Assembly: GCA_938048185.1 (NCBI GenBank)
Contig: CALIVT010000013.1
Span: forward strand, 1 to 64,000
Length of the DNA stretch: 64,000 nucleotides
Direction: 5' to 3'
Source: an uncultured Arenicella sp.
Lineage (GTDB): Bacteria > Pseudomonadota > Gammaproteobacteria > Arenicellales > Arenicellaceae
Position 1 is the first letter of the stretch. Each line of letters starts with the position of its first letter. The position numbers and the translations under genes are program-made. The notes beneath the pieces are model-generated. The model saw nothing but the letters and a program-made list of their open reading frames with translations. It ran no database searches and had not been told where the DNA came from. Of the stretch, positions 27,137 to 47,791 are shown in pieces.

Positions 27137-27192
27137 TTTATATTTTTTATCAATTACTTACAATCTATTTAGAGAATCTCTCAACACTAAGA

Positions 27193-28191: not shown

Positions 28192-28335
28192 GGCGATTAC
28201 TGTGCGGTGGAAATGATGTTGCGATACTTTATTACCGCAATAATATTAAGATTTTGGCGCTTTGTCGCTGAGCAAGGTAAACTTAAGACTTGAGTCTACT
28301 GAGACCGCGCACCCAAACGCAAGCGCTATAAACGT

Positions 28336-28938: not shown

Positions 28939-28961
28939 CCGTATTCGTTGCGCGAGTTAGC

Positions 28962-29624: not shown

Positions 29625-29637
29625 TGCGCGACACCCT

Positions 29638-31476: not shown

Positions 31477-31494
31477 AGTGTCTATACGGTCTAG

Positions 31495-32517
31495 TTAACG
31501 GTTTATTGAGGCGCGACGTTCTAATTGAATGACCGCAAAAATGGCGGCAATAAGGCTGATCAAAACCCCTAAAACCGAGAACTCGATTGTATCATGGTAT
31601 GCCACACTGAGCGTTGCCAACAGCGAACAGAGAATCATCAAAATAATTGCGGCTAAGGCGATGTAAGAATGCGAGTAACCGGCGCTCGCCAAACGCTGAT
31701 AAAAGTGTTGACGATGTGGCAACCAAATCTTTTCGCGTCTAAGTGCGCGCCGGACAATGGTGAAACTCGAATCAACGATAAACACCGCAAATAGGCTTAT
31801 AAAGCTGAGCACCGAAATGTCGTGCCACACACTGCCAACAATAATCAATATGCCGAAAAATGCGCCAATAGTGATACTGCCGACGTCCCCCATGAAAATC
31901 GTCGCAGGGCTCCAATTATGCAGAATAAAGCCGTAGCTGGCGGCCGCTAACACTAAACAAACAATGGCCAGCGACGCGTCACCGCTGATGTAGAACCAAA
32001 AACTGAGAGTACTACTGGCGATAATGGTTTGAGCCGCAGCTAGGCCATCTAAGCCGTCCATGAAATTATACAAGTTGGCCATCCAGAGAACGCCAATCAG
32101 TGAGATAAATGCCCCGACAATCCCGAGTTGAAAGCCGTATATTTGGTCTACCCAACCAAAGCCTGAGACCGTCAAACAACACAAAATTAACTGCACGGCG
32201 AGGCGATAACGCGGGCTTAGGTCATGCTTATCATCCCACCAACTGAGCGCTGCCCACGCGAGTACCAAGAAGGTTAAACTTAAAAAAAACACAGGCCTTA
32301 GCGAGGTGACGGCAACGCACATTAACGCGAGCACCAGTGCGAGAACAATAACCAAACCACCACCGCGCGGCACCGCACCTTGGTGCAGGGTTCTATGATT
32401 TGGTCGATCAACAATGTCGCGTACAATCAAAATCTTGATTAAGCGCGCGACCAACCACCACGACAACGTCGCGATAACCACGAAGATTAGCGCCAACAGC
32501 AAAGCGGCCTCGCTCAT
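31495..32517 (-). CDS. WecA/WbpL-like undecaprenyl-phosphate sugar-1-phosphate transferase
   Basis: The 340-residue protein has about 10-11 membrane helices and the MraY/WecA family motifs: VDRPNHRTLHQGAVPRGGG near the N-terminus, NLYNFMDGLDGLAAAQ in the active site, and FMGDVGSITIG. It transfers a HexNAc-1-phosphate, probably FucNAc or QuiNAc given the WbpM-like neighbour, to undecaprenyl phosphate and so starts the glycan chain. The short size and sequence favour WbpL over WecA, but motif inspection cannot fix the donor sugar. It starts at the very base where the upstream SDR gene stops. Confidence 0.88.
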   Translation of the reverse strand: MSEAALLLALIFVVIATLSWWLVARLIKILIVRDIVDRPNHRTLHQGAVPRGGGLVIVLALVLALMCVAVTSLRPVFFLSLTFLVLAWAALSWWDDKHDLSPRYRLAVQLILCCLTVSGFGWVDQIYGFQLGIVGAFISLIGVLWMANLYNFMDGLDGLAAAQTIIASSTLSFWFYISGDASLAIVCLVLAAASYGFILHNWSPATIFMGDVGSITIGAFFGILIIVGSVWHDISVLSFISLFAVFIVDSSFTIVRRALRREKIWLPHRQHFYQRLASAGYSHSYIALAAIILMILCSLLATLSVAYHDTIEFSVLGVLISLIAAIFAVIQLERRASINR

Positions 32518-33374
32518 TACCTTAGGTCCTGCTGGGGGTGTTGTAAAAACATCTGTGGCTGGTAATCAAAGTCCTTACTCGCATCGCTATAGTCATAATT
32601 TAAATTTTGAGACATTCGATCTGCCATCTCTGGTGTGTATGCGAAGCGTGTGAGTTTAGAAGCTAAGCTCAACGCCAGCCGAAGTAACCATAGAGGTATC
32701 GTAATTATTCTCGGTTTCAGCTTCAGCCCAGCGAACACTCTCTCAACCATGTTGCGATAACTCAAGACCTCGGCACCGGCTAAATTATAAACCTTAGAGA
32801 ACGTATTGTGCTTATCAACGATGGATAAACTGGCGCTAACCAGATCATCAGCGTGCACCGGTTGGCGCAGGCCATCGGCATTTCCCGCTAAGACTGCAAA
32901 ACCAAAACGTCTAATAAATCTCGCTATGTGCGAAATATTTTGATCGCGTCCGTGGCCGTATATCATGCTTGGACGAAGAATTGTCAGCCTCATATTATTA
33001 GCATTACAAAACTCGCTAAGCTGACGCTCGCTGTTACCTAATTGAGTTACCAACACCTGCTCTGACTCGCTACTTGATTCTTGTTTGCTTATCACACTCG
33101 TAGAGCTGAACACGATAAGCCGGTTAATGCCTGCGGCCCGCAAGCTCTCAAGATGTTTGGGCAACAGCCAAATAGGCGCACAATGAATCAGGGTAGCGAC
33201 ACTGTTTAGTGTCGCTAAGGTAGTTGCGTCGGGCTCTAACGTAAGGTCCCATTGCACGTTCTGTTTCGAGCGAGAGGTTTGGCGAGACACCGCTATAAAC
33301 GCGTCACCATCGGCGGTTAAGCGCTCGACTAAAGGTTGACCAACAACGCCCTTGGCACCGGTTACAAGAATCAT
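32517..33374 (-). CDS. NAD-dependent epimerase/reductase-like SDR protein with a changed YxxxK site
   Basis: The 285-residue protein has the extended-SDR nucleotide motif TGAKGVVGQPL and the late RPSMIYGHGRDQN, as in WbpV/WbpK-type 4-keto reductases. They complete UDP-QuiNAc or UDP-FucNAc after WbpM. At the position where such enzymes have YxxxK, this protein reads L112-GNS-E116. Both catalytic residues are absent in the six-frame reading of the DNA, so it is not an obvious frameshift. The protein may be an atypical SDR, a non-catalytic partner, or use other residues. Its start overlaps the upstream GT2 stop in ATGA. Confidence 0.85.
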   Translation of the reverse strand: MILVTGAKGVVGQPLVERLTADGDAFIAVSRQTSRSKQNVQWDLTLEPDATTLATLNSVATLIHCAPIWLLPKHLESLRAAGINRLIVFSSTSVISKQESSSESEQVLVTQLGNSERQLSEFCNANNMRLTILRPSMIYGHGRDQNISHIARFIRRFGFAVLAGNADGLRQPVHADDLVSASLSIVDKHNTFSKVYNLAGAEVLSYRNMVERVFAGLKLKPRIITIPLWLLRLALSLASKLTRFAYTPEMADRMSQNLNYDYSDASKDFDYQPQMFLQHPQQDLR

Positions 33375-34249
33375 CGGCGTATTAGTGCGAGGCTTGCGCG
33401 CGCGACAAAACTCAGCGCAATGCCAAGCTTAACTGAATAACGTATCGGCCACGCGTATTGAGTTTTGTAGAACTTATCGAAAAAACGATTCATGCCCTGG
33501 TGTAGAGTCAATAATACCCGAACTGGGCGCGAACTTGAGCTCACACCTTTTGCATGCACCACCGCGGTGACTGGTATAAAGGCGACCTTCCAGCCGGCTA
33601 GTTCGAAACGCTTGCACCAATCTAGATCCTCACAATGCATAAAATAGTCTTCGTCAAGAAGACCAATTTCTTGAATCGCACTACTGCGTGCAACCATAAA
33701 TGCACCGGAAATGGCCTCCACCATTTCAACCGGACCATCAGCACTAACGTCACTGCCGTAATCAAAATCAGCAAATTTCTTGCTACTGGGAAACATACGA
33801 TGCAACTGCAGCATTCGGACTAAGGCGCTCCAAGGGGTTGGGAAGCGACGTCGACACGTTGTCTGTAAGCTACCGTCTTCATTGAGTATACGACAGCTCG
33901 CTATTCCAATCTGCGGGTCAGACTGCATTACGGCTACAATCTCACTTAGAGTATCTTTCTGGAGCTCACAATCGGGATTGAGCAGCACTGCGTAATCAGC
34001 GTTTACGAGTGTCAACACTTGATTATTTGCCGCAGCAAAACCAACATTAGTGTCGTTCAGTTGCCAATCTACCCGAACGTTATCGTCTCGTTCAGCGATA
34101 TGCTGTGTTGCCAGATCAACGCTATTGTCGCTCGAGTTATTGTCAACCACGGTAATGTCGCCAACGCTGAAATTCAACGCCGACGTTAACGAGCGCGCAA
34201 GCCACTCACCGGCGTTAAAGTTAACGATAATGATATTCGTAGTTGCCAC
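33371..34249 (-). CDS. GT2 glycosyltransferase (WbbL/rhamnosyltransferase-like)
   Basis: This is a GT-A fold family 2 transferase: IIIVNFNAGEWLARSL, VVDNNSSDNSVD, LLNPDCELQKDTL (metal-binding loop) and GAFMVARSSAIQEIGLLDEDYFMHCEDLDWCKR, the last being typical of rhamnosyltransferases. I set the start at the GTG at 34249, which gives 292 residues, has GAAGG about 9 bp upstream and sits just past the stop of the upstream gene. A longer reading from the TTG at 34300 would run into that gene. A C-terminal hydrophobic helix (VKLGIALSFVARASLALI) may tether it to the membrane. Sugar and acceptor are unknown. Confidence 0.88.
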   Translation of the reverse strand: MATTNIIIVNFNAGEWLARSLTSALNFSVGDITVVDNNSSDNSVDLATQHIAERDDNVRVDWQLNDTNVGFAAANNQVLTLVNADYAVLLNPDCELQKDTLSEIVAVMQSDPQIGIASCRILNEDGSLQTTCRRRFPTPWSALVRMLQLHRMFPSSKKFADFDYGSDVSADGPVEMVEAISGAFMVARSSAIQEIGLLDEDYFMHCEDLDWCKRFELAGWKVAFIPVTAVVHAKGVSSSSRPVRVLLTLHQGMNRFFDKFYKTQYAWPIRYSVKLGIALSFVARASLALIRR

Positions 34250-34254
34250 GCGCT

Positions 34255-35175
34255 TTAGCCTTCGCCTAGCGGGCCTGATTTGCCTCGCAATCCGTCCCAA
34301 ATACCGTGCATCATCATTTTTAAATTACCGAGTCTGGGCTGAGTAAAGAGGCCAAACATGATTGCAATCATAGCGAGACGTTGCAGGTCATTCCACTTCC
34401 ATAGCGCACTGGCGTAACCGCGTTTATACAGCAGCACGCTGTTGCGAAAGATATAGTAATAACGAAACGGCTTATGTTGCGGCACATTGCGTTGACGACC
34501 CCCAATTGAAACTCGATGAGTATTTTCGCCCAAACCATGTTGCATCACCGCATTACACACACCAAATGCTTTATAACCCGCATGACGTGCACGCAAAAAC
34601 CATTCAGTGTCTACGTGATCGATGAACAGTGCTTCGTCCATGGCACCAATGGTGTTAAAGCTTTCGAGCGAGACTAAGCTACCAGACGAGATCAAAAAAT
34701 CCGCTTCAATACATTGATCACGGTCTTTGCTCGCGCAATACTGACGCGCGAATTTTAAGGCGCCAAAACGCACGAAGAAAGATTCGCTGCCGTTGTCCGC
34801 ATTTAAATAAGTCACACCAACCGCGCTGACTTGGTGGCCCTTTGCCTTGACTCGATGCGCGGTAAGCAGCGCGGCGACCATGCCCTCTAAGGGAATACTG
34901 TCCTGATCCAGTATCAAAGCATATTCATAGCCCTGAGCTTGAGCATGACGAAAGCCCAAATTATGCGCGGCGCCTAAGCCTACGTTGCGCGACTGCTCGG
35001 CCACTATTGTTCTTTGCAACCCCGCGACCAACGTGTGTAGATCGGCTAAGTTGTTCGACGCATTATCCACCACAAGTACGTCACAGTCTTGCGCTTCAAG
35101 CGACTTGAGCGCGCGCTTTAGCGGCCCAATCTTTGGGTTATAGCTTACAACTATCGCCAGTACGCGACCATTCAT
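34255..35175 (-). CDS. GT2 glycosyltransferase (RfbF/rhamnosyltransferase-like)
   Basis: A family 2 transferase with LAIVVSYNPKIGPLKRALKSL, VDNASNNLADL, ILDQDSIPLEGMVAALL and a C-terminal ALFIDHVDTEWFLRARHAGYKAF, which is close to RfbF-type rhamnosyltransferases. The ATG at 35175 gives 306 residues and starts 13 bp after the upstream GT2 stop. A start at 35235 would overlap that gene by 47 bp. The long hydrophobic segment near LAMIAIMFGLFTQPRLGN suggests membrane association. Together with rmlAB it would make sense if L-rhamnose or a related 6-deoxyhexose is used, but the rhamnose genes rmlC and rmlD are not in the window. Confidence 0.87.
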   Translation of the reverse strand: MNGRVLAIVVSYNPKIGPLKRALKSLEAQDCDVLVVDNASNNLADLHTLVAGLQRTIVAEQSRNVGLGAAHNLGFRHAQAQGYEYALILDQDSIPLEGMVAALLTAHRVKAKGHQVSAVGVTYLNADNGSESFFVRFGALKFARQYCASKDRDQCIEADFLISSGSLVSLESFNTIGAMDEALFIDHVDTEWFLRARHAGYKAFGVCNAVMQHGLGENTHRVSIGGRQRNVPQHKPFRYYYIFRNSVLLYKRGYASALWKWNDLQRLAMIAIMFGLFTQPRLGNLKMMMHGIWDGLRGKSGPLGEG

Positions 35176-35188
35176 GAGCGATAAGCTG

Positions 35189-36151
35189 CTAGCTACCGTG
35201 CTCGCTGTCCTCAATACCAATGGTTTTGCGCACATGGTATATCGGTTTATTTTGGCTTTCGTAATAAGTGCGAGTTTGCATCTCGCCTATGAGTCCAAAT
35301 AGGATAAATTGCAGTCCGATAATTAATAACATGAACGCAAATATCAATAATGGACGGTCACCCAGCGGTATGCCAAAAAATAAACGGGCAATACTAAGAT
35401 AGGTGATTAGTGCGCCACCGATGGCACCCAAAGCAAGCCCGGGCATACCGAAGAAATGCAGTGGCCGTGCGTGAAAGCGTAGTAAGAACTTAACCGTGAT
35501 TAAATCTAAAACCACCCGAAAGGTGCGCGAAATTCCGTATTTCGACTCGCCGGCCGTACGCGCCCGATGATTTACCTTCACTTCCGCAATCTTGGCGCCC
35601 ACGCCACTCGCTACCGCCGGGATAAAACGATGCATCTCACCGTACAGCGTGACTCGTTTGGACAGCTCTTTGCGCATTGCTTTAAGTGTACAACCATAAT
35701 CGTGTAAGTTGACGTCGGTGATTTTTGAAATCAAACGATTGGCTAACATCGACGGCAATTTTCGCGATAAATACGTATCTTGGCGGTCATGACGCCACCC
35801 GCATGCCATGTCATAACCTTCTTCGATTTTTGCGACCATTGCCGGAATATCATTTGGGTCGTTTTGGCGGTCTGCGTCGAGCGTTACCACGATCTCGCCT
35901 TGCGCATAGTCTAAGCCGGCAACCATGGCGGCGGTTTGCCCGAAGTTACGGCGAAAGCTCACCACTTTAATTTGTGGCATCTCATTGCGAAAGCGTTCTA
36001 AGACATCCACCCCATCATCGGTACTGCCATCATCAATAAATAAGACTTCGTACTCGCGTTCCATTGGGTCAAGAGCGGCTTTAAGCTCCTCACATAACGG
36101 TTTTAAGTTGGGGGATTCGTTTAGAAACGGAATGACAATCGAGACGTCCAT
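35189..36151 (-). CDS. Membrane GT2 glycosyltransferase, DPM1/GtrB-like
   Basis: The 320-residue protein begins with SIVIPFLNESPNLKPLCEEL and has IDDGSTDDGVDVL, VVTLDADRQNDPNDIP, and YGCTLKAMRKELSKRV, matching the GtrB/ArnC/DPM1 subgroup. Two membrane helices follow at the C-terminus (LALGAIGGALITYLSIARLF and LLIFAFMLLIIGLQFILFGL). Such enzymes usually move a sugar from a nucleotide donor onto undecaprenyl phosphate for use on the other face of the membrane, or modify lipid A or O-antigen. That would make a lipid-linked side-chain donor here, but it is inference. Confidence 0.88.
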   Translation of the reverse strand: MDVSIVIPFLNESPNLKPLCEELKAALDPMEREYEVLFIDDGSTDDGVDVLERFRNEMPQIKVVSFRRNFGQTAAMVAGLDYAQGEIVVTLDADRQNDPNDIPAMVAKIEEGYDMACGWRHDRQDTYLSRKLPSMLANRLISKITDVNLHDYGCTLKAMRKELSKRVTLYGEMHRFIPAVASGVGAKIAEVKVNHRARTAGESKYGISRTFRVVLDLITVKFLLRFHARPLHFFGMPGLALGAIGGALITYLSIARLFFGIPLGDRPLLIFAFMLLIIGLQFILFGLIGEMQTRTYYESQNKPIYHVRKTIGIEDSEHGS

Positions 36152-36281
36152 TACGGCTTACCTATTTGCTAGTCAAGTAGCTACTATTTATAACAACCAG
36201 CATCACGCGCCTAACTGGTCATATTAATTATTAAAGCGCGATTATACGAAAATACCGTTCAAAGAGTACGGTAATCGAGTC

Positions 36282-38267
36282 TCAAAGATGAATAAGTTCA
36301 CCCTCTTTGCGATGTTCTAATTGTGGGAATACGCCCTCATCGGTGATACGTAAATGTTTGCTGTAATATTTGTCGACAAACCCTTTACACTTCCAACGGC
36401 TTTGCAAGGCTTCAAGTTCAGTGAAATAACGTTCGATGTGCTGCTCAGACATGTCGTCACCTCGGCTAACCGATTCGTGGTGAAACAGCCGTGCCTCGGG
36501 CGTCCAAATTATCTCGCGACCGAGTGCTTCAACCTTAAGGCAGTAGTCAATATCGTTATACGCGACCTTGAAATTCTCTTCATCAAGACCGCCTATGCTT
36601 TCAAATAAGGCCCTGGGAGTCAGCAAACAAGCGGCGGTAACCGCCATCATGTTTTGAGTTGCTAGACAGCGTAATTGATAACCCGGCGCGTCACCCTCTT
36701 CCAAGCGGTGAATATGACCCGCCGCGTTGCCCATGCCAATGGTTACCCCAGCATGTTGAACCTTGCCGTTACCAAATAAAAGTTTGGCTCCAACGATGCC
36801 AACCGACGGCTGTACCGCCCAGACCATCATCTGGGTTAACCAATCGCCATCTATTACTTCAATATCATTGTTAATCAGGCCAATATAATCTGACGAACCG
36901 GTGGACGCGGCAAAGTTATTAATGGCGGAGTAGTTAAATTCACCCGGATATTCAACAATCGATACTCGGTCATCGTGTTTGAGTTCAGCAAAATACGCGT
37001 GCGTCTCAGCAAGCTCACTGCCATTATCAACAATAATGATTTTATAATGCTTATAACTGGTTTTCGTCAGAATACTATCAACACACGGTTTGAGTACTGC
37101 GAGGCCATCACGTGTGGGAATGACTAGATCGATCGAGGGATGATCTTGCCAAGCCTCATTCGCGACGAGAGCATTGTAATTGGTGCGACGTTGCCACGCG
37201 ATATTTGGCCAAGCTGAGTCAGCGTTGCTTGGTTCAGGCGTCGTGAGCCCTTCTTTGCGACTGGAATTAAATAGGGCTTCGCTCACCCCGAGCACCGACG
37301 ACGTCGACTCAAACGCTTGCAAGGCAATACGATACTTAAGCTCGTCCGTCATTAGTTCTTGAGTGTTATGCCCACTCACCGACTCCACCGAGAACACCAC
37401 CGCAAAACCGATATAGTTAAAACAATGAAGGTACGCGTGACTTGGTTGTGGTTTAAATACCGGCTCTAGGCCGCTAATCGGCTTGTTTTCAGTTAATTGG
37501 TAATCGTGATCGGTGTAAACCAAAGAAGGTCGCACCGCCGTTTTCTTGATGGCTCGTTTGAGCATAAGAATAGCGGGCGCTCGTAATTTTTCCGTTGCAT
37601 TTAGCGGAATTAGATAGTCGATATTGCTCGGCACTGGCTCGCCCGCCATTAGTATGGCATCTGGCGCGACTAACAAGTCGCTTAGGTCTTGGCGCTGCCC
37701 CTCATGCTCGATAATCACGGCAATGGTAACCCCATGACCAAGCCACGCTAACTGCTTGCCAAACCCGTGAAACTTCTGCCAGCCATCAATCTGCTCCAAA
37801 TACGCATCTCCACCACGCGCGGGAGCGTAAAAATGCAGCAAGTTACTCGACAACTCAATGTTGTCTTGAAATTGCATCAAAAGCATTTTAAACACGACTT
37901 TGATGCTAAAAAAATCACGTAAATATCGGGCGCAAATAAGTAGCACGCGTGCACGGCCCTCTAAGGTCGAGACTCGAGCCAACCGCTCGAACTCTATGGA
38001 TTTGCTATGAGCACTTAACTCACCATCTACTAGGTAAACCAGCATGCGGTTACGGCCTGCATGACTACCGACCAATACCCGTTCTTGGGACTTACCGTTT
38101 GCCTTGTGAATAATTAGGCGAGGAATATGGTCGAGACTGCCCTGAAGTAAAAATTCAGTGACGTACCAACCTTTATAAATCTTGGGTCTAGGCGTACTAA
38201 AATCGATAATGCGCCAAGTAGACTCAAGCTTATTATTAAGCTTAATCAATTGCTTACGAATATTCAT
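36282..38267 (-). CDS. Tandem GT2 glycosyltransferase with degenerate first module
   Basis: At 661 residues this is larger than its neighbours. The C-terminal 300 residues form an intact GT2 domain: IDLVIPTRDGLAVLKPC, IIVDNGSEL, LINNDIEVIDGDWL, and KVAYNDIDYCLKVEALGRE. The middle region (LVYTDHDYQLTENKPISG followed by FKPQPSHAYLHCFNYIGF) matches the second half of the first GT2 module in tandem-module rhamnan-type transferases (usual form YSDEDKLD...FKPDWSPD...NYIGH). The first half of that module and its substrate motif are not recognisable, so the N-terminal module is likely inactive or truncated. A 130-bp gap separates this gene from the downstream GT2 gene. Confidence 0.85.
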   Translation of the reverse strand: MNIRKQLIKLNNKLESTWRIIDFSTPRPKIYKGWYVTEFLLQGSLDHIPRLIIHKANGKSQERVLVGSHAGRNRMLVYLVDGELSAHSKSIEFERLARVSTLEGRARVLLICARYLRDFFSIKVVFKMLLMQFQDNIELSSNLLHFYAPARGGDAYLEQIDGWQKFHGFGKQLAWLGHGVTIAVIIEHEGQRQDLSDLLVAPDAILMAGEPVPSNIDYLIPLNATEKLRAPAILMLKRAIKKTAVRPSLVYTDHDYQLTENKPISGLEPVFKPQPSHAYLHCFNYIGFAVVFSVESVSGHNTQELMTDELKYRIALQAFESTSSVLGVSEALFNSSRKEGLTTPEPSNADSAWPNIAWQRRTNYNALVANEAWQDHPSIDLVIPTRDGLAVLKPCVDSILTKTSYKHYKIIIVDNGSELAETHAYFAELKHDDRVSIVEYPGEFNYSAINNFAASTGSSDYIGLINNDIEVIDGDWLTQMMVWAVQPSVGIVGAKLLFGNGKVQHAGVTIGMGNAAGHIHRLEEGDAPGYQLRCLATQNMMAVTAACLLTPRALFESIGGLDEENFKVAYNDIDYCLKVEALGREIIWTPEARLFHHESVSRGDDMSEQHIERYFTELEALQSRWKCKGFVDKYYSKHLRITDEGVFPQLEHRKEGELIHL

Positions 38268-38300
38268 TAACGTGCTCTAGTATGAATGCTTAAAGCACTT

Positions 38301-39533
38301 TTAGATGGTTGTCTTGCCAAACAGCCGACGTATACCGTTGAGAAACCGCCAACCGATTGAACCACTCATTAGATCAACTTTAGCCTGCAAATTACCCGCG
38401 TGCGATTGCAGCTGCACGATCTCGGCGTTTAAATGTCGCTGAACTTTGCCGGGGATTTTTACTTCTAGAACGGGGCTGGGTGTCGCCCTAGGATTAACCA
38501 CATCAAGGTATTTCAAGGGCTCTGCACGATAGGACGCAATACTAAAATCACACAGAGTATCGATAGACTCGGGCCGGTCTGACAATACAATTAGAAATGA
38601 GTTTGCGTGTTGCGCCAGGCTGCCAGATTGAGCTAAGCCTTGCCATATATAATGCTCGTGGTCGCCAAGCTCAAATGCACTTAAATAGTCACGTGACTGA
38701 ATTCCTTTCGCGCCCTCGCTGAGTTCGTGAATCGCGCTTTCGTTAACGACCATAGTTGGCACTTTATAGTCAGGAAACGGATACAAAAACTGAGTATGGT
38801 TAAAAGCGTGCGTGTGCCCTAACCATTCTTCACGGCTATAAGTACGGATTCCAGTAGACGCAGGGTAATGATCAATGCCGACGAATGGGACCCCATAATG
38901 ATCTTCGCTTGCGCCAAGCAAGTACTTGAGTCCCAGGCGATTTTCGATCGCAATAACCACGCAGCCCTCGTGCGTCACCGCATTTTTGCCGAGGGCAAGT
39001 AAATCACGCAACGCTTCTTCGTCGCTTTCTCGCTCGGAAAAACGGCCTGCGTATTCAGTGACGCCAACAAACAACACCAAGTCGTAATAGTTCTCAGGAA
39101 ACTTTATCTCATTAAAGTTCGCTGTTGAGACCGTCACATTGGGTAGATCACGACAACGCAATGCAGCAAGGCCTGCACGAGTAGAGCTGCCTTCGACCGC
39201 GTCAATTTGTAAATTAGTTTGTTCGCCAAGGTAACGCGTAATCGCTCCGCAGCCACAGCCCAACTCAAGCACGCGCACCACGCCGTCGAGATTTAGCGGG
39301 CGCAGTAGGTTTGCTCGGGTGCTCGATAAGTGATATTCAGTAGGCCAATCAGAAATGGCTTCTTGCAGCTCGGCTGAGGTAGAAGACAGATCTGTTACAG
39401 TACTGAGCACTTTATAGAGCTGCGCCTCGGATTCTTCGCCATCCGAATAGTTAAACTCACGTTCAGCACTGCCTGCTTGATATACGCCGTCAATGCCTTG
39501 CGAAAAACCGTTTAACTCAATCAAATCATTCAT
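38301..39533 (-). CDS. SAM methyltransferase with C-terminal coiled coil, possible glycan chain terminator
   Basis: The 410-residue protein has a SAM-binding motif VLELGCGCGAITRYLGE near residue 88, then VEGSSTRAGLAA and FVGVTEYAGRFSE. After the methyltransferase domain, the last 50 residues (VQRHLNAEIVQLQSHAGNLQAKVD) look like a short coiled coil and end in a basic amphipathic stretch. It lies directly after wzt, whose product has an extended C-terminal domain that reads chain ends in ABC-dependent systems. A chain-capping role like that of WbdD is attractive, but WbdD has a kinase domain that is missing here. Confidence 0.8.
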   Translation of the reverse strand: MNDLIELNGFSQGIDGVYQAGSAEREFNYSDGEESEAQLYKVLSTVTDLSSTSAELQEAISDWPTEYHLSSTRANLLRPLNLDGVVRVLELGCGCGAITRYLGEQTNLQIDAVEGSSTRAGLAALRCRDLPNVTVSTANFNEIKFPENYYDLVLFVGVTEYAGRFSERESDEEALRDLLALGKNAVTHEGCVVIAIENRLGLKYLLGASEDHYGVPFVGIDHYPASTGIRTYSREEWLGHTHAFNHTQFLYPFPDYKVPTMVVNESAIHELSEGAKGIQSRDYLSAFELGDHEHYIWQGLAQSGSLAQHANSFLIVLSDRPESIDTLCDFSIASYRAEPLKYLDVVNPRATPSPVLEVKIPGKVQRHLNAEIVQLQSHAGNLQAKVDLMSGSIGWRFLNGIRRLFGKTTI

Positions 39534-39557
39534 GATGCTTACCTAAGCGCCGTCAAA

Positions 39558-40859
39558 TTAAACATCGGAATCGTCCGCAACCAAACTCATTTTCGCATCT
39601 AACGCAGCATAGCCAAACGCTTCTGAGGTTTGACCAATATGTAAATGAATCAGGTCATAACGACGATCAACGGGAATCGCGTCCTTACTCTCGTGGTCTT
39701 GCGCGACGCCAAGCGAGACAAAATAATCGCCGGCAAGTAAGTTAAGCGTAAGCTCATACTCCACTGACACTAAGTCCCCCGCGTTTTGTGTGGTCGGTAG
39801 GCTACCCACCAAGCGAGAGTTAGTGCCGTACACCGCATTCCCATCGTTGGTTTTTACAGTAATACCGTAAATAATATCGTCAACATCATGTTCAAAAAGC
39901 ACCGACATTCGAATGCGCAAATTATCGCCGCGGTGTACCAGTCCAGAGGTTTGCGCCCCATTTTGTAATACCTCATAGTGACAAATCTTAGCGCGTCCAT
40001 CGCCCCAGCGTTCTTCATTAGAATTATAAGTCGGGTGGCGCAGGCAATTGTCTTGTGTCGGGTCGAAGTCAACGTTGTAGTCTTCGGGGACTATCACAAC
40101 GGGTTTACTAACCGTAACGTCAGACGCGAACATCATTTCCAAATAGGCTTGTACTACTTGCTTTGGACTACCGGTGAGCTTCAACTCTCCGTCGTCTAAC
40201 ATAATCGCACGGTCACAATATTTTAAAACACTGTCGGTCGAGTGAGTCACAAATAGAATTGACACGCCCTGCTCCTTCAACTGATCTAGGCGTCGAAAAC
40301 ACTTTCGCTGGAAACGCACATCGCCCACCGCTAAGGCCTCGTCGACGATCAAGATGTCTGGGTTCATGTTAATCGCAACGGCAAACGCCAAACGCACAAA
40401 CATGCCGCTAGAGTAGGTTTTAACGGGCCGCTGCAAAAAATCGCCTAAGCCACAAAATTCAACAATATCGGGCAGCTTTTGATGAAACTCTTCGCGCGTC
40501 AAGCCCATAATAGACGCGTTGAGACGTGCGTTTTCCATACCCGTGAACTCAGGGTTAAACCCAGCGCCCAGCTCGAGCAAGGCGGAAATACGCCCGTCGG
40601 TTTTACACTCACCGTCAGTGGCTTGCAGAATGCCTGTGATGATCTGCAATAAGGTCGACTTACCAGACCCATTTTTACCAACAATACCGACCGTCTCGCC
40701 TTTATTAACGGTAAGGTCAATGCCTTTAAGGGCCCAGAATTCTTGATAAAATTGCTTCTTAGTGGCAAAACTTTGCCATAAGCGATGGATTGGCTTTTGG
40801 TAACTTTGGTAACACTTGGTGATACCTTCTACTTCGATAACTGGCGTGCTAGATGACAT
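39558..40859 (-). CDS. wzt: ABC transporter ATPase Wzt with extended C-terminal glycan-binding domain
   Basis: The N-terminal 240 residues form an ABC ATPase: Walker A GIVGKNGSGKSTLL, LLELGAGFNPEFTGMEN (typical of polysaccharide exporters), the signature TYSSGMFVRLAF and Walker B ILIVDEALAVGD. The extra C-terminal domain (about residues 270-433) is the beta-sandwich Wzt_C type that recognises the non-reducing end of finished chains. I use the ATG at 40859, which overlaps the wzm stop. GTG at 40874 would add five residues. Presence of an extended Wzt means the exported glycan is probably end-modified. Confidence 0.92.
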   Translation of the reverse strand: MSSSTPVIEVEGITKCYQSYQKPIHRLWQSFATKKQFYQEFWALKGIDLTVNKGETVGIVGKNGSGKSTLLQIITGILQATDGECKTDGRISALLELGAGFNPEFTGMENARLNASIMGLTREEFHQKLPDIVEFCGLGDFLQRPVKTYSSGMFVRLAFAVAINMNPDILIVDEALAVGDVRFQRKCFRRLDQLKEQGVSILFVTHSTDSVLKYCDRAIMLDDGELKLTGSPKQVVQAYLEMMFASDVTVSKPVVIVPEDYNVDFDPTQDNCLRHPTYNSNEERWGDGRAKICHYEVLQNGAQTSGLVHRGDNLRIRMSVLFEHDVDDIIYGITVKTNDGNAVYGTNSRLVGSLPTTQNAGDLVSVEYELTLNLLAGDYFVSLGVAQDHESKDAIPVDRRYDLIHLHIGQTSEAFGYAALDAKMSLVADDSDV

Positions 40860-41640
40860 CGGCAAACCCATCACGTGTGCGCTTAAAAAACCACACTCCT
40901 AGAAAGAACATCGCGAACGCGCAAACAGTGTAAATACCTAGTTGCTCCCAATTTGGCATCTGCCCAAACAAAATGACTGCGCGCAGCTGCTCAACAATGA
41001 TGGTTAATGGGTTCAACCATAAAACATAGGGCTGCAGTTCAATGGGCAGGCGGTCAAACGGAAACAGGATCGAGCACAAGAACATCAATACGGTCATTAA
41101 CACGCCGACAACTTGACCTAAATCTCTAACGTAAACGCCCAACACCGAGACAAACCACGAAGCACCCAACAAAAAGACGATAAACGGAAAAAGCACCACC
41201 GGCACTAGCAGCAACGTCCACTCTAGCGCATTACCGCTAATGATATAGATTACCAATAGAATCAACATGCCCAACAGCATATGAAACAACGCGTTGGCTA
41301 GGCTTACTAAGCTCAGAATCTCTAGTGGAAACACCACTTTTTTGACGTATTGAGAGTTGCCTGTAATTAAGCCGACGGCGCCAATCATCACCTCGGCTAA
41401 TAATCCATGACACAGCAGTCCGGTAAAGAGGATCAAGCCAAAATCAATGTTATCTTGCCCTTCTACCCCCCACTTGACCCTCATCACCATGCCAAAGACG
41501 AAGGTGTAGACCAAGAGCATGAGTACAGGGTAGAAAAAAGCCCATAGAAAGCCGAGCTGAGAGCCGCGATAACGTTGTTGAATATCGCGTTTAAGCATCT
41601 GTAAAAACAAATACTTATGATTTAGTAAACCTAAAAGCAT
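40849..41640 (-). CDS. wzm: ABC-2 type polysaccharide export permease Wzm
   Basis: The 263-residue membrane protein begins MLLGLLNHKYLFLQMLKRDIQQRYRGSQLG, with the amphipathic N-terminal helix and RYRGS motif of Wzm/KpsM-like permeases. About six membrane helices follow. The partner Wzt gene overlaps its end by about 10 bp, so they are translated together. With it, lipid-linked glycan is moved across the inner membrane. The locus has no Wzx flippase or Wzy polymerase, which supports ABC-dependent export. Confidence 0.92.
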   Translation of the reverse strand: MLLGLLNHKYLFLQMLKRDIQQRYRGSQLGFLWAFFYPVLMLLVYTFVFGMVMRVKWGVEGQDNIDFGLILFTGLLCHGLLAEVMIGAVGLITGNSQYVKKVVFPLEILSLVSLANALFHMLLGMLILLVIYIISGNALEWTLLLVPVVLFPFIVFLLGASWFVSVLGVYVRDLGQVVGVLMTVLMFLCSILFPFDRLPIELQPYVLWLNPLTIIVEQLRAVILFGQMPNWEQLGIYTVCAFAMFFLGVWFFKRTRDGFADVI

Positions 41641-41645
41641 ATCAA

Positions 41646-42536
41646 CTAGTCGATGCCGAGGAATTGATGCTTGTTTTCCAAAATCATTTTAAGGTACGCC
41701 CCGTAGCCGCTCTTCCCGTATTGGTGGGCCGCGTTTTCCAGCATTTCTTCATTGATATACCCTTTTCGGTACGCAATTTCCTCTAAACAAGCCACCTTCA
41801 AGCCTTGTCGGCTTTCAATAGTCTCAATAAACATCGACGCCTGCAAAAGCGACTCATGAGTGCCCATATCTAGCCATGCTAAGCCACGGCCGAAAACCTG
41901 TACCGACAGCTCACCCCATTCAAGGTATTGCTTATTGACGTCAGTGATCTCAAGTTCGCCGCGCGGCGATGGTTGAATATTTTTAGCAACATCGACCACG
42001 CGATTATCGTAAAAATACAAACCGGTGACCGCATAATTTGATTTAGCTTGCGCGGGCTTTTCTTCTAAGCTCAAGGCATTCCATTCTGGGTCAAACTCAA
42101 CCACGCCGTAGCGCTCAGGGTCGTGCACTGGATACGCAAACACGGTAGCGCCTTTCTTTTGCTCGCCAGCTTGCGCCAAGTCTTTACTTAAATCGGCGCC
42201 ATGAAACACGTTGTCGCCTAACACTAAGGCGCAGTCATCTTTGCCAATAAATTCCGAGCCGATAATAAAGGCTTGCGCTAGACCGTCGGGCGATGGCTGA
42301 ACCGCATAAGAAATATTAATGCCCCATTGCGAGCCGTCGCGCATAAGTTGCTGAAAACGCGGAGTATCTTGCGGGGTCGAAATGATCAAGATATCTCGAA
42401 TTCCAGCCAACATTAATGACGACAACGGGTAGTAAATCATCGGCTTGTCGTACACCGGCAGCAGCTGCTTTGATACCGCTTGAGTAACTGGGTGCAGCCG
42501 AGTGCCCGAACCGCCCGCTAATACAATGCCTCTCAT
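41646..42536 (-). CDS. rfbA: Glucose-1-phosphate thymidylyltransferase RmlA
   Basis: The 296-residue protein matches RmlA/RfbA closely: [18 protein letters not shown] (nucleotide loop GxGTR), [30 protein letters not shown], and [21 protein letters not shown]. It makes dTDP-glucose from glucose-1-phosphate and dTTP. rfbB lies 42 bp upstream on the same strand and wzm 5 bp downstream, so it belongs to the same long transcript. The product feeds RmlB, but the later steps of dTDP-L-rhamnose synthesis are not encoded in the window. Confidence 0.96.
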
Positions 42537-42578
42537 GTTGTTCTCCTAAACTGTTATTTCTAAGTTACTGTGCACTAG

Positions 42579-43634
42579 TTATTCAGTGCCCAACCGGTCA
42601 CCGCTGTAATCGCCGGACACCTTGGCGATCCACTCCGAATTAGCGAGATACCATTCAACCGTTTTGCGAATACCCGTTTCAAAGGTTTCTTCCGGCGTCC
42701 AGCCAAGCTCGCGCTCGATTTTGGTGGCATCAATCGCATAGCGACGGTCGTGCCCTGGCCTATCCGCCACAAAGGTAATTTGATCGGCATAAGGCTTACC
42801 ATCAGCGCGAGGGGTAATATCATCTAAGATCGAACACATTGTTTGTACTACTTCAATATTCGTCTTCTCGTTGTGCCCACCAACGTTATAGACCTGACCG
42901 TTTTGTCCTTCGGTCACGATGCGCCACAAGGCTTTGACGTGATCATCCACAAACAGCCAATCGCGAATATTGTCGCCCTTACCGTAAATTGGCAATGGCT
43001 CACCTGCCACCGCTTTTTGAATAATCAACGGCACCAGTTTTTCAGGGAATTGGAATGGCCCATAATTGTTAGAGCAATTAGACACCACAACCGGTAACTT
43101 ATACGTTTTGTTCCACGCTCGTACCAAGTGGTCAGAGCTGGCTTTACTGGCGGAATACGGTGAATTAGGTTTGTAGCGCGTGGTCTCGGTAAAAAGCCCG
43201 GTCTCGCCCAAGCTGCCGTAAACCTCGTCAGTCGATATATGGTGAAACTTAAACGCTTCTTTTTTCGCGCCGGCTAATCCCTCGTAATATTCGCGTGCAA
43301 TTTGCAATAAATTATAGGTGCCTACGATATTGGTTTGAATAAACTCGCCGGGGCCGTCAATTGAGCGATCGACGTGTGATTCGGCCGCCAAGTGCATGAT
43401 GTAGTCGGGTTGATATCGCTCGACCAAGTTACGCATCGCATCAGCGTCAACGATATCACTTTGGTGGAAATGGTGCCGCTCACTCGCGTCGGCTCCACCC
43501 AATGAATGCAAGCTACCTGCGTAGGTCAGTTTGTCGACGTTAACCACCGTGGTGTCGGTCTGATCAATCAAATACCTGACGAGTGCTGAGCCAATAAAGC
43601 CCGCGCCGCCGGTTAACAATACAGTTTTACTCAT
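42579..43634 (-). CDS. rfbB: dTDP-glucose 4,6-dehydratase RmlB
   Basis: A 351-residue extended [18 protein letters not shown] (NAD loop), [28 protein letters not shown] with the catalytic Asp-Glu, and [16 protein letters not shown] with the YxxxK pair. It converts dTDP-glucose to dTDP-4-keto-6-deoxyglucose. The gene starts 55 bp downstream of the wHTH regulator gene and is the first enzyme gene of the locus. No RmlC epimerase or RmlD reductase follows, so the final dTDP sugar may be something other than rhamnose, or those genes lie elsewhere. Confidence 0.96.
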
Positions 43635-43689
43635 GTGTGTTTCCGCGCTGATCTGCTGTGTGTTTTTGTTGTGCGTTGAAAGTTCATAG

Positions 43690-44388
43690 TCAAGTGTCGT
43701 GGTCTAGCCTATTACGGTAATTCATAGTTAATAACATATCAGGCACCACAACGAGTTCTTCACCATAGCGCTGGCGCAGCTCCGTGATTAACTCACCGGT
43801 TTGCTCCATCGCCGATATGACGATTACGTCAAACTTTAAAGCCGCGCATTCTACTGGTTTCGAGTACACGGGTACACCAAAAAACTCATCTCGTTCGCTG
43901 GCAGGCTGGTAGACACCCACTACCCGCGCATCGCTTTGTAAAGAACGCATTAACGCAATCTCAGTTAAGTCGGATAAACCGGCCAGTAATATGGATGCTT
44001 TACCATTTTCTGCGCAGCTTTCGAAGACAGCCGAATATTCATCGCCCGCCTGCCTGAACAGTGCTAAGGAGGTACTGAAAAACTCGGCGGTCAAACGCGC
44101 TTTTTCACTAAAACCATTTGGCGTTAAATAGTAAAGGTAGCGATTCGCGGGCGCGGTGGTGATTTTTATCCAGCCCTTTTTCACGCACCGTTTCAGATAA
44201 GAGTTCGCTAAGCCCAATGCCACCCCCATCTCCTGTGCGAGATGCCGCTGACTGATATCGTCCTTTTGCTCAATGGCTTGCAACAACTCCAACGTAAGCT
44301 GGCTCTGCTTGTCATTAACCGACTGACCGGATGCTCTTTTCATAGAGTCTGGCTGCTCAGCGTGGCGTGTATTAGATAGAGCGTTCAT
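43690..44388 (-). CDS. Winged-helix regulator at the head of the polysaccharide locus (EPS-associated MarR-like)
   Basis: The 232-residue protein has an N-terminal wHTH of the MarR-like EPS-associated type: [41 protein letters not shown] and [22 protein letters not shown]. The C-terminal half ([47 protein letters not shown]) looks like a Rossmann-type fold with a possible nucleotide or nucleotide-sugar loop. Regulators of this family sit at the head of exopolysaccharide loci. The gene is the first of the minus-strand block and is divergent from the PHP-GT4 gene, sharing a 222-bp control region with it. Confidence 0.83.
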
Positions 44389-44457: not shown

Positions 44458-44497
44458 CTGTCACAAAAGCGTCATAGACTCGTCTTCATTTAGTCAC
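44458..44497 (+). promoter_or_regulatory. Candidate PhoB box array: four 7-bp units at 11-bp spacing
   Basis: The units are CTGTCAC (44458), GCGTCAT (44469), TCGTCTT (44480) and TAGTCAC (44491), each followed by a 4-bp spacer (AAAA, AGAC, CATT). The known PhoB repeat is CTGTCAT with an 11-bp period. Matches to it are 6, 5, 4 and 4 of 7, and all four units keep GTC at positions 3-5. The first pair with its AAAA spacer is the strongest. The array reads in the direction of the PHP-GT4 gene, whose ATG lies 113 bp downstream. It is also 70 bp from the divergent regulator gene. A TAAATAT follows at 44500 as a possible -10 region. Confidence 0.6.
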
Positions 44498-44610
44498 AGT
44501 AAATATCTACGCTTGCACGCTCTAACGCTCGAAAACCGTAATATTTGCGACAGCAATAAAGAACCGGCATCAGCCATCCGAATTCAAACCTACTCAAAAC
44601 AGATCAAGTC

Positions 44611-47097
44611 ATGGCCAAAGCGGATTTACACGTTCATTCTAAGTATTCAGATCACCCAAGCACATGGGGTCATAAGGTTTATAACTCACCGGAAAGCTTT
44701 ACCGAGATAGAGACCGTTTATTTACAAGCAAAAATGCGCGGTATGGACTTTGTGACGATTACCGACCACGATGATATTCGAGGTAGCTTAGAGCTGGTTG
44801 CGAGCTACCCGCAGGACAGTTTCGTATCCTGTGAGGTCACCACGTATTTCCCTGAAGATGGCTGCAAAGCTCACGTATTGGTATTCGGCATAGATGAACT
44901 GCAATACAACCGTATTATGGCTGTTGCGCAAGATATTTACGTGCTACGCGATTATATAGTCGAACAAGACATCGCTTGCTCAGTGGCTCATGCAACCTAC
45001 GATCAAGACAACAAGCTTAGCTTTGAGCACATTGAAAAACTGGTCGTACTATTTGACGTATTTGAGGTAGTTAACGGCGCATCGGCGGCCCAAAACAGCC
45101 TGTTGTTGTGCCGATATTTACAAGGTTTGGATGAAAAGTCCCTTAACGCGTTAATTGAGAAGCACCAATTAGAGCCAATGAGTCACGACCCTTGGAATAA
45201 AGGGTTTACTGGCGGTTCAGACGATCATTGTGGCATCTTAATTGGCAGCGCGTATACCCAAAACAAGTCGACAAACATCGCCGAATTTCTCGACTCAATT
45301 CGCAAAAAGAAGAGTTCGGGCAGCGGGCTACATGGCAGTTTTGAATCCTTCGCCACCGGTGTAATCAAACACATTCATGATTACCGCGGTAATCGTGACT
45401 CGAAATACTCGACGACTAACAAATATTCCAAAACTAAGATGAACGACTTTCTAGAACTCTTCTTTGCAGGCAAGGAGGGTAATCTGGTCAAACGCTTCAA
45501 AAAGAGCCAATCATTACGGTATCTCAAAAAGAAAAACACCAAAACTCACGCTGCCCTGCATACCTTATTAATGCAAATCAGCGATGACATCGATCATGAT
45601 ATCGCAAGCAAGATTCCTCGAACCTATGAGCAAATCTCAAACCTGCACGATGAAATGTTTCGTTCGGTTGTAAGCGCCCTGTCCAAACACTTACCGAGCG
45701 GCGATATATTCAAAGGCTTTAACCGTCTAGCCGCCCTATTCCCGATGACCCTACTTATCGCTCCGTTTATCGGCTCTATGCGGCATCAAGTTCTTAAATC
45801 GAGCATCAAACGCGGTTTGATTGAAGCCACCCGAGAGCAATACACCGAAAAAGCGCTTTGGTTTACCGATACAATTGATGATTTAAACGGCGTTTCGGTC
45901 ACCTTGCGGCAAATCGCGAAACATAGCCGGACACACCGCTACCAACTAAAACTAGTGACCTGCGTCGATGAACAAAGACTGACGACCCCGCTACCCAAAG
46001 ATGCCCTTAACTTCACGCCGATTAAAGCAGTCTCGGTGCCGGGCTACAAGACGCAAGAAATTAACTTCCCGTCAATCTTGACCACGATGCGTGCCATAAT
46101 TCTAGAGCAAGCCGACCAGATCGTCATCTCAACTCCCGGCCCCCTCGGTTTGACCGCAATGATGTGCGGCAAATTAATGGGCCTACCGGTTAAAACTGTG
46201 TACCACACCGACTTTGCTGAGCAGATAATGCGCATCAACAACGAACCAACACTGGCGGCCGTGGTGGACTATTGTGTCAACTCGTTTTATAAGCTCGCAG
46301 ATCAAGTATTTGTGCCCAGTGATTTCTACATCAATAAACTAGTTAAAGCAGGTTTGGCTAGCAACAAGCTCTCAATTTTCCCACGCGGGCTTGATCTGGA
46401 CCTTTATTGCCCTAGCGCGAAGCCCGCTACCCTTGCGCGCAGACACCAACTGCATGGCAGCTTTACACTTCTTTTCGCGGGCCGTATTTCCGAGGATAAA
46501 AACCTGTCATTACTGGTAAAGATAATCAAACAAGCTAATCAGGAAAAACCAGGAATCTACAACCTGGTTGTTGCGGGCGATGGCCCCGCCCAATCGCAAT
46601 TAAAGCAGGACTTGGCTAAACAAAGTAATGTCCATTTTACCGGCAGACTGGCTCCAGAAGATCTCGTAGAGTGGTATCGCAGCACTGACTTGCTGGTTTT
46701 TCCAAGCCATACTGACACCTTTGGCATGGTGGTTCTTGAAGCGCAAGCCTGCGGTGTACCGTGCCTCGTTACCGCCACCGGAGGCCCCAAAGAAATAATC
46801 AAACCAACGATAACGGGCGACGTAATCGCCGGTGATTTGCCGCAAGAATGGCTGGACAAGATTGACTATTATCGTCAACTAAAAAACAACGACAAGTGTG
46901 CTTGGAACAAACTTAAAAGCGAATGCGCTGAACATGTGCACACTCAGAACAATTGGCAACCGGTGTTCGACGCGGTGTTGGGTGACGCATGTCGTTCACC
47001 AACGACCGCAACCAGAAGCACCTCTCTCGCGCTACTCGACGAGCGGAAGCAACGCGCAGAACCTATCCCCAAACCCAGCCCAGACAAAGCGGCCTAG
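44611..47097 (+). CDS. PHP-domain phosphoesterase fused to GT4 glycosyltransferase
   Basis: The 828-residue protein joins two families. The N-terminal 270 residues form a PHP metallo-phosphoesterase domain with intact metal motifs: DLHVHSKYSDH (H7, H9), TDHDD (51-55), E75, H127, and GGSDDH (201-206). Residues 280-400 are a basic linker with a hydrophobic patch (LFPMTLLIAPFIGSM). From about 430 to the end is a GT4 domain of the MgtA/SqdX-like type: FAGRISEDKNLSLLVK, VVAGDGPAQSQLK and D702-TFGMVVL-E710. It may make a glycolipid or a glycan. A PhoB-like box array lies upstream and a histidine phosphatase gene follows 58 bp downstream. Confidence 0.88.
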   Translation: MAKADLHVHSKYSDHPSTWGHKVYNSPESFTEIETVYLQAKMRGMDFVTITDHDDIRGSLELVASYPQDSFVSCEVTTYFPEDGCKAHVLVFGIDELQYNRIMAVAQDIYVLRDYIVEQDIACSVAHATYDQDNKLSFEHIEKLVVLFDVFEVVNGASAAQNSLLLCRYLQGLDEKSLNALIEKHQLEPMSHDPWNKGFTGGSDDHCGILIGSAYTQNKSTNIAEFLDSIRKKKSSGSGLHGSFESFATGVIKHIHDYRGNRDSKYSTTNKYSKTKMNDFLELFFAGKEGNLVKRFKKSQSLRYLKKKNTKTHAALHTLLMQISDDIDHDIASKIPRTYEQISNLHDEMFRSVVSALSKHLPSGDIFKGFNRLAALFPMTLLIAPFIGSMRHQVLKSSIKRGLIEATREQYTEKALWFTDTIDDLNGVSVTLRQIAKHSRTHRYQLKLVTCVDEQRLTTPLPKDALNFTPIKAVSVPGYKTQEINFPSILTTMRAIILEQADQIVISTPGPLGLTAMMCGKLMGLPVKTVYHTDFAEQIMRINNEPTLAAVVDYCVNSFYKLADQVFVPSDFYINKLVKAGLASNKLSIFPRGLDLDLYCPSAKPATLARRHQLHGSFTLLFAGRISEDKNLSLLVKIIKQANQEKPGIYNLVVAGDGPAQSQLKQDLAKQSNVHFTGRLAPEDLVEWYRSTDLLVFPSHTDTFGMVVLEAQACGVPCLVTATGGPKEIIKPTITGDVIAGDLPQEWLDKIDYYRQLKNNDKCAWNKLKSECAEHVHTQNNWQPVFDAVLGDACRSPTTATRSTSLALLDERKQRAEPIPKPSPDKAA

Positions 47098-47155
47098 GCA
47101 TAATTTCAGCCCCCTAATACCCAGAATCTTGATTCTTGATACTATGAGCAATTGA

Positions 47156-47791
47156 ATGAAACCAGCATCATACACCTCTGCAATGCCCCGCAAGAAAAGC
47201 AACCGATACTACCTAATGCGTCACGGTCAAAGCGAGGCAAACCGTCAGGGAATCATCGTAAGCCGCCCTGAAAACGCAATAGATCACTATGGTTTAACGA
47301 CCAAAGGTGCCGAACAGGTAATGGCAAGCGCCTTAAACACTCGATTAGACCGCGACACAATCATCGTTTCATCAGACTACAAGCGCGCGATTGAGAGCGC
47401 GCGAATAGTTAAAAGTGTTATCGACTGCCAGCATGAAATCATTATCGACAAATCTCTGCGCGAACGCGACTTTGGTAACTGGGAGCTAAAGGGCGACGAA
47501 CACTACGCCAGCATTTGGCATCAAGATGTAGCACAACCGTCCAGCTCGATGAATGGCGTTGAAACCGTAAACGCAACGCTTGAGCGTGGCTTACATGCGA
47601 TCGAATTACTTGAGACTCAGTTCAACGGTAAAAAAATTTTGTTAGTGAGCCACGGAGACGTATTACAAATATTGTTAACGCACTATCACAATATCAACCC
47701 GCGCTTTCACCGCAGCGTAAACAGCATTGGAAATGCGGATATCCGAAGTTTGACTAAACTGGATTTAGCGAGTAAAACCCCCGCGGCGTAA
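47156..47791 (+). CDS. Histidine phosphatase (phosphoglycerate-mutase-like)
   Basis: The 211-residue protein has the RHG motif R22-H23-G24 in LMRHGQSEANRQG, E103 in LRERDFGNWE and the second catalytic His H166 in LLVSHGDVLQ, so the active site is complete. Members dephosphorylate sugars, nucleotides or phospho-proteins. The substrate is not evident. It lies 58 bp after the PHP-GT4 gene on the same strand and probably shares its transcript. A phosphatase beside a phosphoesterase-glycosyltransferase fusion, under a possible PhoB box, would fit phosphate salvage or removal of phosphate from a glycan or lipid intermediate. Confidence 0.88.
   Translation: MKPASYTSAMPRKKSNRYYLMRHGQSEANRQGIIVSRPENAIDHYGLTTKGAEQVMASALNTRLDRDTIIVSSDYKRAIESARIVKSVIDCQHEIIIDKSLRERDFGNWELKGDEHYASIWHQDVAQPSSSMNGVETVNATLERGLHAIELLETQFNGKKILLVSHGDVLQILLTHYHNINPRFHRSVNSIGNADIRSLTKLDLASKTPAA

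Follow-up and report, generated by a model that had tools for sequence, protein, structure and literature searches.

What would a bacterium do with a phosphoesterase and a glycosyltransferase joined in a single gene, placed behind what resembles a phosphate switch? The question is raised by a stretch of 64,000 nucleotides (hereafter the window) from an uncultured Arenicella sp. of the Gammaproteobacteria (GenBank assembly GCA_938048185.1, contig CALIVT010000013.1, positions 1 to 64,000), in which four direct repeats resembling the PhoB box read towards a gene that fuses a PHP metallo-phosphoesterase domain to a GT4 glycosyltransferase. The replacement of phospholipids by glycolipids when phosphate is scarce is a known strategy, with PlcP plus Agt as the known enzyme pair, and we consider this PHP-GT4 fusion to be most likely a PhoB-induced glycolipid synthase. 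Computation has established the array and how well it is conserved, the architecture of the gene, both folds, the conserved residues and the Pho and aminolipid context. Genomes, contigs and loci are designated below by G, C and L numbers where they have to be told apart.

A PhoB-like promoter conserved in the genus

The array occupies 44458..44497 of the forward strand and consists of the units CTGTCAC (44458), GCGTCAT (44469), TCGTCTT (44480) and TAGTCAC (44491). A recount confirmed that they match CTGTCAT at 6, 5, 4 and 4 of seven positions with exact 11-bp spacing, as the original prediction had it. Their total of 19 out of 28 is the top four-unit score of the window on both strands, found at this single site of the forward strand (the reverse strand reaches a maximum of 17 over the whole window), and it was not attained once when the intergenic region (222 bp) was dinucleotide-shuffled 500 times. 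The best four-unit scores in Escherichia coli upstream regions are 16 (phoE), 18 (phoA and phnC), 19 (phoB), 21 (ugpB) and 25 (pstS), the lower of which are near noise, because chance alone gives 12 to 16 on the opposite strands of the upstream regions of the genus. When the array was set against its background with a matrix derived from seven PhoB boxes of E. coli, the two-box score at 44458 was 24.0 bits versus 12.65 bits for the runner-up in the window; in the single-box scan one reverse-strand site equals the first box of the array in strength. A putative -10 element, TACGCT (44508..44513, forward strand), starts 10 nt past the fourth unit and has the form TAnnnT, the frequency of which in the window is 0.013. 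Among five E. coli promoters, phoA (TATAGT) and pstS (TATTTT) fit this spacing and phoB (CATAAT) nearly does; phoE and ugpB show no -10 fit at 10 nt with the array unit chosen. The locus therefore has what defines a Pho box, i.e., CTGTCAT-like repeats every 11 bp, a -10 element about 10 nt further on that replaces the -35, and PhoB in the genome.

An orthologue of the fusion (1e-60) was found in 11 of the 18 genomes of the genus (8 of 11 among genomes at least 90% complete); the 91 further genomes of the order that were searched gave none. At 1e-80, an evenly drawn set of 369 genomes from the class, with two candidates scored in each, yielded four matches, all from the genus. Ten genus loci were readable upstream, namely the window and nine relatives (the contig of the tenth relative runs out), and the comparison upheld the array as a shared feature. 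The two-box site before the operon is the best of the entire locus, both strands considered, in 10/10 (12.4 to 24.0 bits), with upstream lengths fixed at 160 nt for L023 and 200 nt for L017, where the neighbouring or own open reading frame (ORF) starts were over-long. TAnnnT begins exactly 10 nt past the fourth unit in nine of the ten, L019 being the exception; the unit registers for this comparison were set by eye, and the register used is not the one that the four-unit count ranks best in L022 and L019. In L022 the operon lies in an unrelated neighbourhood and the array is still the best hit of the locus. These promoters are homologous and therefore do not represent ten independent events, and eight further loci (L032-L039) are the same DNA as eight of the ten genus relatives and add no evidence.

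The genome itself (3.12 Mb, 42 contigs, 98.2% complete; the nearest relatives that bear a name are listed as uncultured Arenicella or Gammaproteobacteria) encodes PhoB (TIGR02154, 301.1 bits versus a cut-off of 296.2), and genes for PstC, PstB and PhoU above cut-off lie near phoB. The pst-phoU and phoR-phoB genes are grouped at 24001-42000 of another contig (G000:C28; L154/L114). A gene that we take from its sequence to be pstS-like is preceded by a PhoB-like single box of 18.4 bits, and the genome's own phoB promoter has no strong box by the E. coli matrix (3.6 bits). The PstS model TIGR00975 matches in none of the 18 genus genomes, although PstC, PstB and PhoU are present. With an independent E. 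coli matrix, ten genus promoters, the fixed -10 position and PhoB in the genome all pointing the same way, the predicted PhoB control of the operon is strongly supported at the level of sequence.

Architecture of the fusion protein

The fusion gene (44611..47097, forward strand, as are all its parts) encodes 828 amino acids, and its full-length AlphaFold2 model, built on a 55-row alignment, has a mean predicted local distance difference test score (pLDDT) of 88.6 and a predicted template modelling score (pTM) of 0.87. The PHP domain comprises residues 1-240 (44611..45330). It falls below the Pfam cut-offs (PF02811, 14.2 versus 26.4 bits; PHP_C, 17.4 versus 21.3), being a divergent PHP domain, and the canonical PHP model picks three other PHP genes of the genome and misses this one, so we took the route of fold comparison, with the domain folded alone because a full-length fold search was filled by the GT4 half. 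Residues 1-272 modelled in this way (pLDDT 93.0) gave PHP fold matches with Z up to 18.2 (3e38, 192 residues, 2.8 Å), the others including a Chromobacterium violaceum amidohydrolase with adenosine monophosphate (AMP) and phosphate bound (Z 15.9) and RNase AM (Z 15.6). The fold and the histidine/acid pattern are shared with the PHP phosphoesterases RNase AM, the C. violaceum amidohydrolase, PsfC and TM0559, which differ in not being fused to a glycosyltransferase.

The presumed metal ligands are H7, H9, H53, E75, H88, H127, D204 and H206, which correspond to what we take to be the PHP motif list (HxH, H, E, H, H, DxH) and presumably to the ligands of solved PHP enzymes. Conservation was read from 61 rows, the window plus 60 of 80 loci, 18 having been dropped by the pattern DLHxH and two as too short. 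H53, H127, D204 and H206 are kept in 61/61 rows, H88 in 60 and E75 in 57, and D14 varies; H7 and H9 are also conserved, although the row filter selected for both. Sixteen of the 18 loci dropped by the pattern visibly keep HxH at the start (DMH, DIH, ELH, GLH or DLHA), and L084 and L090 show none in the part inspected. The domain is thus identified by its model, its fold match and its conserved ligands. Against 46 fusion proteins of other phyla, identity averages 47% for PHP, 35% for GT4 and 19% for the linker, so that the PHP domain is the best conserved part and therefore very likely catalytic, with a predicted phosphoesterase activity, rather than vestigial.

A helical linker (residues 244-406, 45340..45828) with a hydrophobic stretch at about 369-391 connects the two halves. 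Its 19-residue mean hydropathy of 1.55 is borderline, the stretch recurs in the distant members inspected, and the linker may contact the membrane. The GT4 domain of GT-B fold (residues 410-794, 45838..46992), for which MgtA/SqdX-like is a candidate subtype, was recognised directly (PF00534, 111.1 bits versus a cut-off of 26.4), and its acidic-x7-E motif, D702-x7-E710, is kept in 58 (D702) and 59 (E710) of the 61 rows. Its fold matches are MshA (3c4q, Z 37.0, 358 residues), PimB' (31.4), PimA (30.9) and plant DGD2 (27.9), all chains of 361-393 residues with 14-18% identity, too short to hold an N-terminal PHP. The fusion of PHP to GT4 is thus real, as originally described, borne out by the ORF, the conserved ligands and two models in which both folds are well predicted.

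Probable operon partners and genomic neighbourhood

The fusion is followed on the forward strand by a gene for a branch 1 histidine phosphatase of 211 aa (47156..47791; PF00300, 106.3 bits; no PDB sequence match at 1e-8), whose ORF had been given correctly and which is a probable operon partner. A homologue stands in the same place in nine of the ten relatives with downstream DNA read. The only genus member without it, L024 (G012), has there a 506-aa protein that, from its start, we take to resemble a flavin-dependent halogenase.

Seven relatives carry one more gene, first in the operon between the array and the fusion, for an acyltransferase some 335 aa long. Its match to the OlsF model covers positions 248-569 of 570, i.e., the C-terminal half of this bifunctional ornithine lipid synthase (399.5 bits, cut-off 620). 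Its scores (399.5 and 150.4 bits, each short of the cut-off of the respective model) place it with OlsF and GlsB. The gene was found in 7 of the 18 genus genomes, all seven with the fusion and directly upstream of it. Array, fusion and phosphatase are all present in the window, L019 and L023, whose genomes give no acyltransferase match (for the window's genome at 1e-5), so that no OlsF or OlsB gene accompanies the fusion here. OlsF itself is known in ornithine lipid synthesis under phosphate limitation (PMC5193443, available part). The three genomes that combine fusion and array without the acyltransferase group as a single clade (support 96/94; recovered in 98% of bootstrap trees), which with distant outgroups falls inside the carriers; the gene would for this reason most simply have been lost once in the window's clade, and a single gain may be the alternative, given long outgroup branches and an unresolved base of the genus.

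The absence of plcP from the window was also borne out, and it extends to the genome. None of its five PF00149 proteins was recognised as PlcP and none is on the window's contig (C13), where no PlcP of this family stands beside a glycosyltransferase. Two are LpxH and ApaH, above NCBIfam cut-offs, and three of about 400 aa gave no NCBIfam match at 1e-6. The latter (L217, L218 and L219, G000) are related-looking metallophosphoesterases of exported type, with starts that we take to be twin-arginine-like, and are possible phosphate scavengers.

On the other side of the array, a divergent surface-polysaccharide export cluster (39558-44388, reverse strand) comprises an ABC transporter pair, presumed dTDP-sugar genes, named from their sequence, and a MarR_EPS-like regulator (69.4 bits, cut-off 88).

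Distribution of the fusion in other phyla

The architecture proved to be far from restricted to the genus. When 84,980 species genomes were scanned in a pattern-led search, 175 relatives emerged, the best 80 of which were used further, and 72 of these 80 are from outside the genus, with 31-39% identity, most of them across nearly the full length. They come from Spirochaetes, Cloacimonadota, KSB1, Desulfobacula, Planctomycetes, Lentisphaerae, Verrucomicrobia and others. In the class of Desulfobotulus, matches at 1e-60 were obtained in 52 of 147 genomes, 23 as one long alignment over both halves. One genome, G870, has a full-length fusion gene and a CutC 97% identical to a solved chain that we take to be from Desulfovibrio alaskensis; with 97% as the best CutC match, it was rejected as the D. 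alaskensis genome. In the order around a CutC-bearing genome, an order that through the CutC link would be Desulfovibrionales, 141 of 348 genomes matched at 1e-60, 57 as one alignment spanning both halves and the remainder as separate halves or one half, mostly inside long frames.

The neighbours of these 72 loci give raw counts, with no chance expectation and with many loci ending at contig edges. A PhoB/PhoR-like pair stands beside the fusion or one gene off in four (L040, L055, L072 and L105), the regulator matching PhoB best, under cut-off, and the kinases matching PnpS or WalK best, then PhoR. OlsF-like genes occur in L065, L070 and L110 and an OlsB-like gene in L076 (4/72). PhoU domains joined to an APH/choline-kinase-like domain were seen in L044 (2688-5854), with sequence kin in L041 and L047 (3/72; L044 alone was scanned), and in L044 a 404-aa protein without Pfam match lies beside the PhoU-domain protein, next to the fusion. 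E. coli-like PhoB boxes before the fusion show no clear excess in 68 loci of other phyla, with rank 1 in one locus versus 0.7 expected and rank 5 or better in six versus 3.4; PhoB control outside the genus is therefore not shown.

Some other features recur near the fusion. In two Pirellulaceae-type loci (L097 and L098) the fusion is preceded, at a distance of about 150 nt, by three units that contain TTCAT and are spaced 11 bp apart; they rank only 22nd and 23rd among the sites of these loci. A GMC-type oxidoreductase (family scanned in L050) comes just after it in L050, L051, L068, L073, L078, L079 and L080, followed in six of these seven by a short-chain dehydrogenase. A conserved partner of 564-676 aa directly follows it in L055 (4259-5953), L058, L070, L084, L085 and L110; the L055 copy has no Pfam or NCBIfam match and the L110 copy no NCBIfam match.

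Proposed function and alternative explanations

The closest known system is the PlcP-Agt pair of marine heterotrophs, SAR11 and Agrobacterium, some with Pho boxes, which resembles the locus in its upstream boxes, in a glycosyltransferase for starvation glycolipids and in a phosphoesterase partner (PMC4796936, available part). It differs in that the partner here is a PHP domain fused to the glycosyltransferase instead of a separate PlcP. In Desulfovibrio alaskensis G20, mutants of Dde_3613, an Agt homologue (MGDG/GADG synthase), lack any glycolipid in phosphate limitation and olsF mutants lack ornithine lipids; olsF, too, belongs to the response there (PMC5193443, available part). In view of G870 and of the matches in the class of Desulfobotulus and in the presumed Desulfovibrionales, Dde_3613 may itself be a PHP-GT4; it is described only as an Agt homologue, and the word PHP is absent from the main text of that paper. 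The available part of the Lipocone paper (PMC12419801) makes no link between PHP and GT4, and no paper on such a fusion was found in the part of the open-licence literature searched. PHP, GT4, Pho boxes and glycolipid remodelling are each known; their PhoB-controlled combination is a new variation on them.

We propose that, when phosphate is scarce, phosphorylated PhoB would bind the four repeats at 44458-44497 and recruit RNA polymerase to the -10 at 44508, leading to transcription of the fusion gene and probably also of the histidine phosphatase gene. The protein would sit at the inner membrane via its helical linker. There GT4 would take the sugar of a nucleotide-sugar and attach it to a lipid, with diacylglycerol as the most likely acceptor, to make a phosphorus-free glycolipid, and PHP would hydrolyse an acceptor-side phosphate ester (phosphatidic acid or a phospholipid head group) to diacylglycerol and free phosphate, one protein thereby doing the job of PlcP plus Agt elsewhere. 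In this scheme the binding by PhoB, the identity of sugar and acceptor, the substrate of PHP and the contact with the membrane are inferred. Membrane lipid replacement in phosphate starvation is suggested by Pho control, a GT4 of a kind to which lipid glycosyltransferases belong and the aminolipid acyltransferase of relatives taken together, and with no recognised PlcP in the genome the PHP domain is the natural candidate for supplying diacylglycerol. The role in phosphorus-free membrane lipids that had been foreseen gains from the OlsF-C-like gene in seven relatives' operons and from the Pho or Ols neighbours in a minority of loci of other phyla, so that the original interpretation is borne out in part. 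As a whole, a PhoB-induced PHP-GT4 that makes a phosphorus-free glycolipid with PHP acting on the acceptor side is our best explanation, held with middling confidence.

Several observations weigh against it, and some of them are the very support of its competitors. The substrates of PHP and GT4 are both predictions, Dde_3613 is a possible PHP-GT4 at most, the box ranks outside the genus are those given above, and the genome holds the three twin-arginine-like PF00149 proteins without assigned function. The PHP sequence weakly resembles CehA/McbA hydrolases (33.8 of 80 bits), there is no lipase among the PHP matches, and the nearest folds include nucleotide- and RNA-acting enzymes, i.e., RNase AM and the AMP-bound C. 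violaceum amidohydrolase. It is these folds that favour the main rival, in which the protein is also a PhoB-induced glycolipid synthase and PHP works on the donor side, cleaving the nucleotide released by GT4 (uridine diphosphate or a derivative), which would pull the transfer and recover phosphate. Such recycling would fit PhoB control; against it, likeness of fold does not give the substrate and we know of no GT4 with a built-in nucleotidase, and we regard this donor-side role as rather unlikely.

Another candidate acceptor is an aminolipid of ornithine- or glycine-lipid type, made with the OlsF-C-like acyltransferase and glycosylated by the fusion, with PHP trimming the lipid or a precursor. 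The position of that gene directly before the fusion in seven genus genomes and its OlsF/GlsB-type scores suggest as much, whereas the window, L019 and L023 keep the operon without it, and OlsF occurs in just 9 of 49 fusion-bearing genomes searched (those of 50 of the 72 loci were submitted), a count that also weighs against our best explanation and rules OlsF out as a constant companion of the fusion; an aminolipid acceptor thus seems improbable. We give similarly little credence to a role in surface polysaccharide, with the operon modifying the polysaccharide of the adjacent export cluster or its lipid carrier. That cluster adjoins the fusion in eight of nine relatives with the upstream side read, another point against a lipid function, it contains the MarR_EPS-like regulator, and GT4 enzymes are common in polysaccharide loci; set against this, cluster and operon are divergently transcribed, in L022 the operon and its array lie apart from genes of this kind, and the PhoB and aminolipid gene context points elsewhere. 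Finally, the array could be a chance resemblance and the operon free of phosphate regulation. Units 3 and 4 match at only four of seven positions, PhoB regulation is a prediction from sequence, and out of 500 shuffles 27 equalled the four-unit count in L021, 69 in L022 and 219 in L023 (4 in L016), the L023 figure because an over-long neighbouring ORF cut the region to 87 nt. We rejected this explanation as hardly credible in view of the top score in the window, the leading two-box hits in all ten loci and the fixed -10 position in nine.

A broader claim, which we put forward as a tentative possibility, is that PHP-GT4 is a self-contained converter of phospholipid to glycolipid that replaces PlcP plus Agt in many phyla and is PhoB-controlled in this genus. 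The PHP and GT4 residues given above make a short mutation list with which the coupling could be tested directly. If the proposal is true, this PHP domain would add to its superfamily a novel type of phosphoesterase that acts on lipids, the widespread fusion could explain remodelling in bacteria that have no recognisable PlcP, and metagenome surveys would gain a second marker of phosphorus stress.

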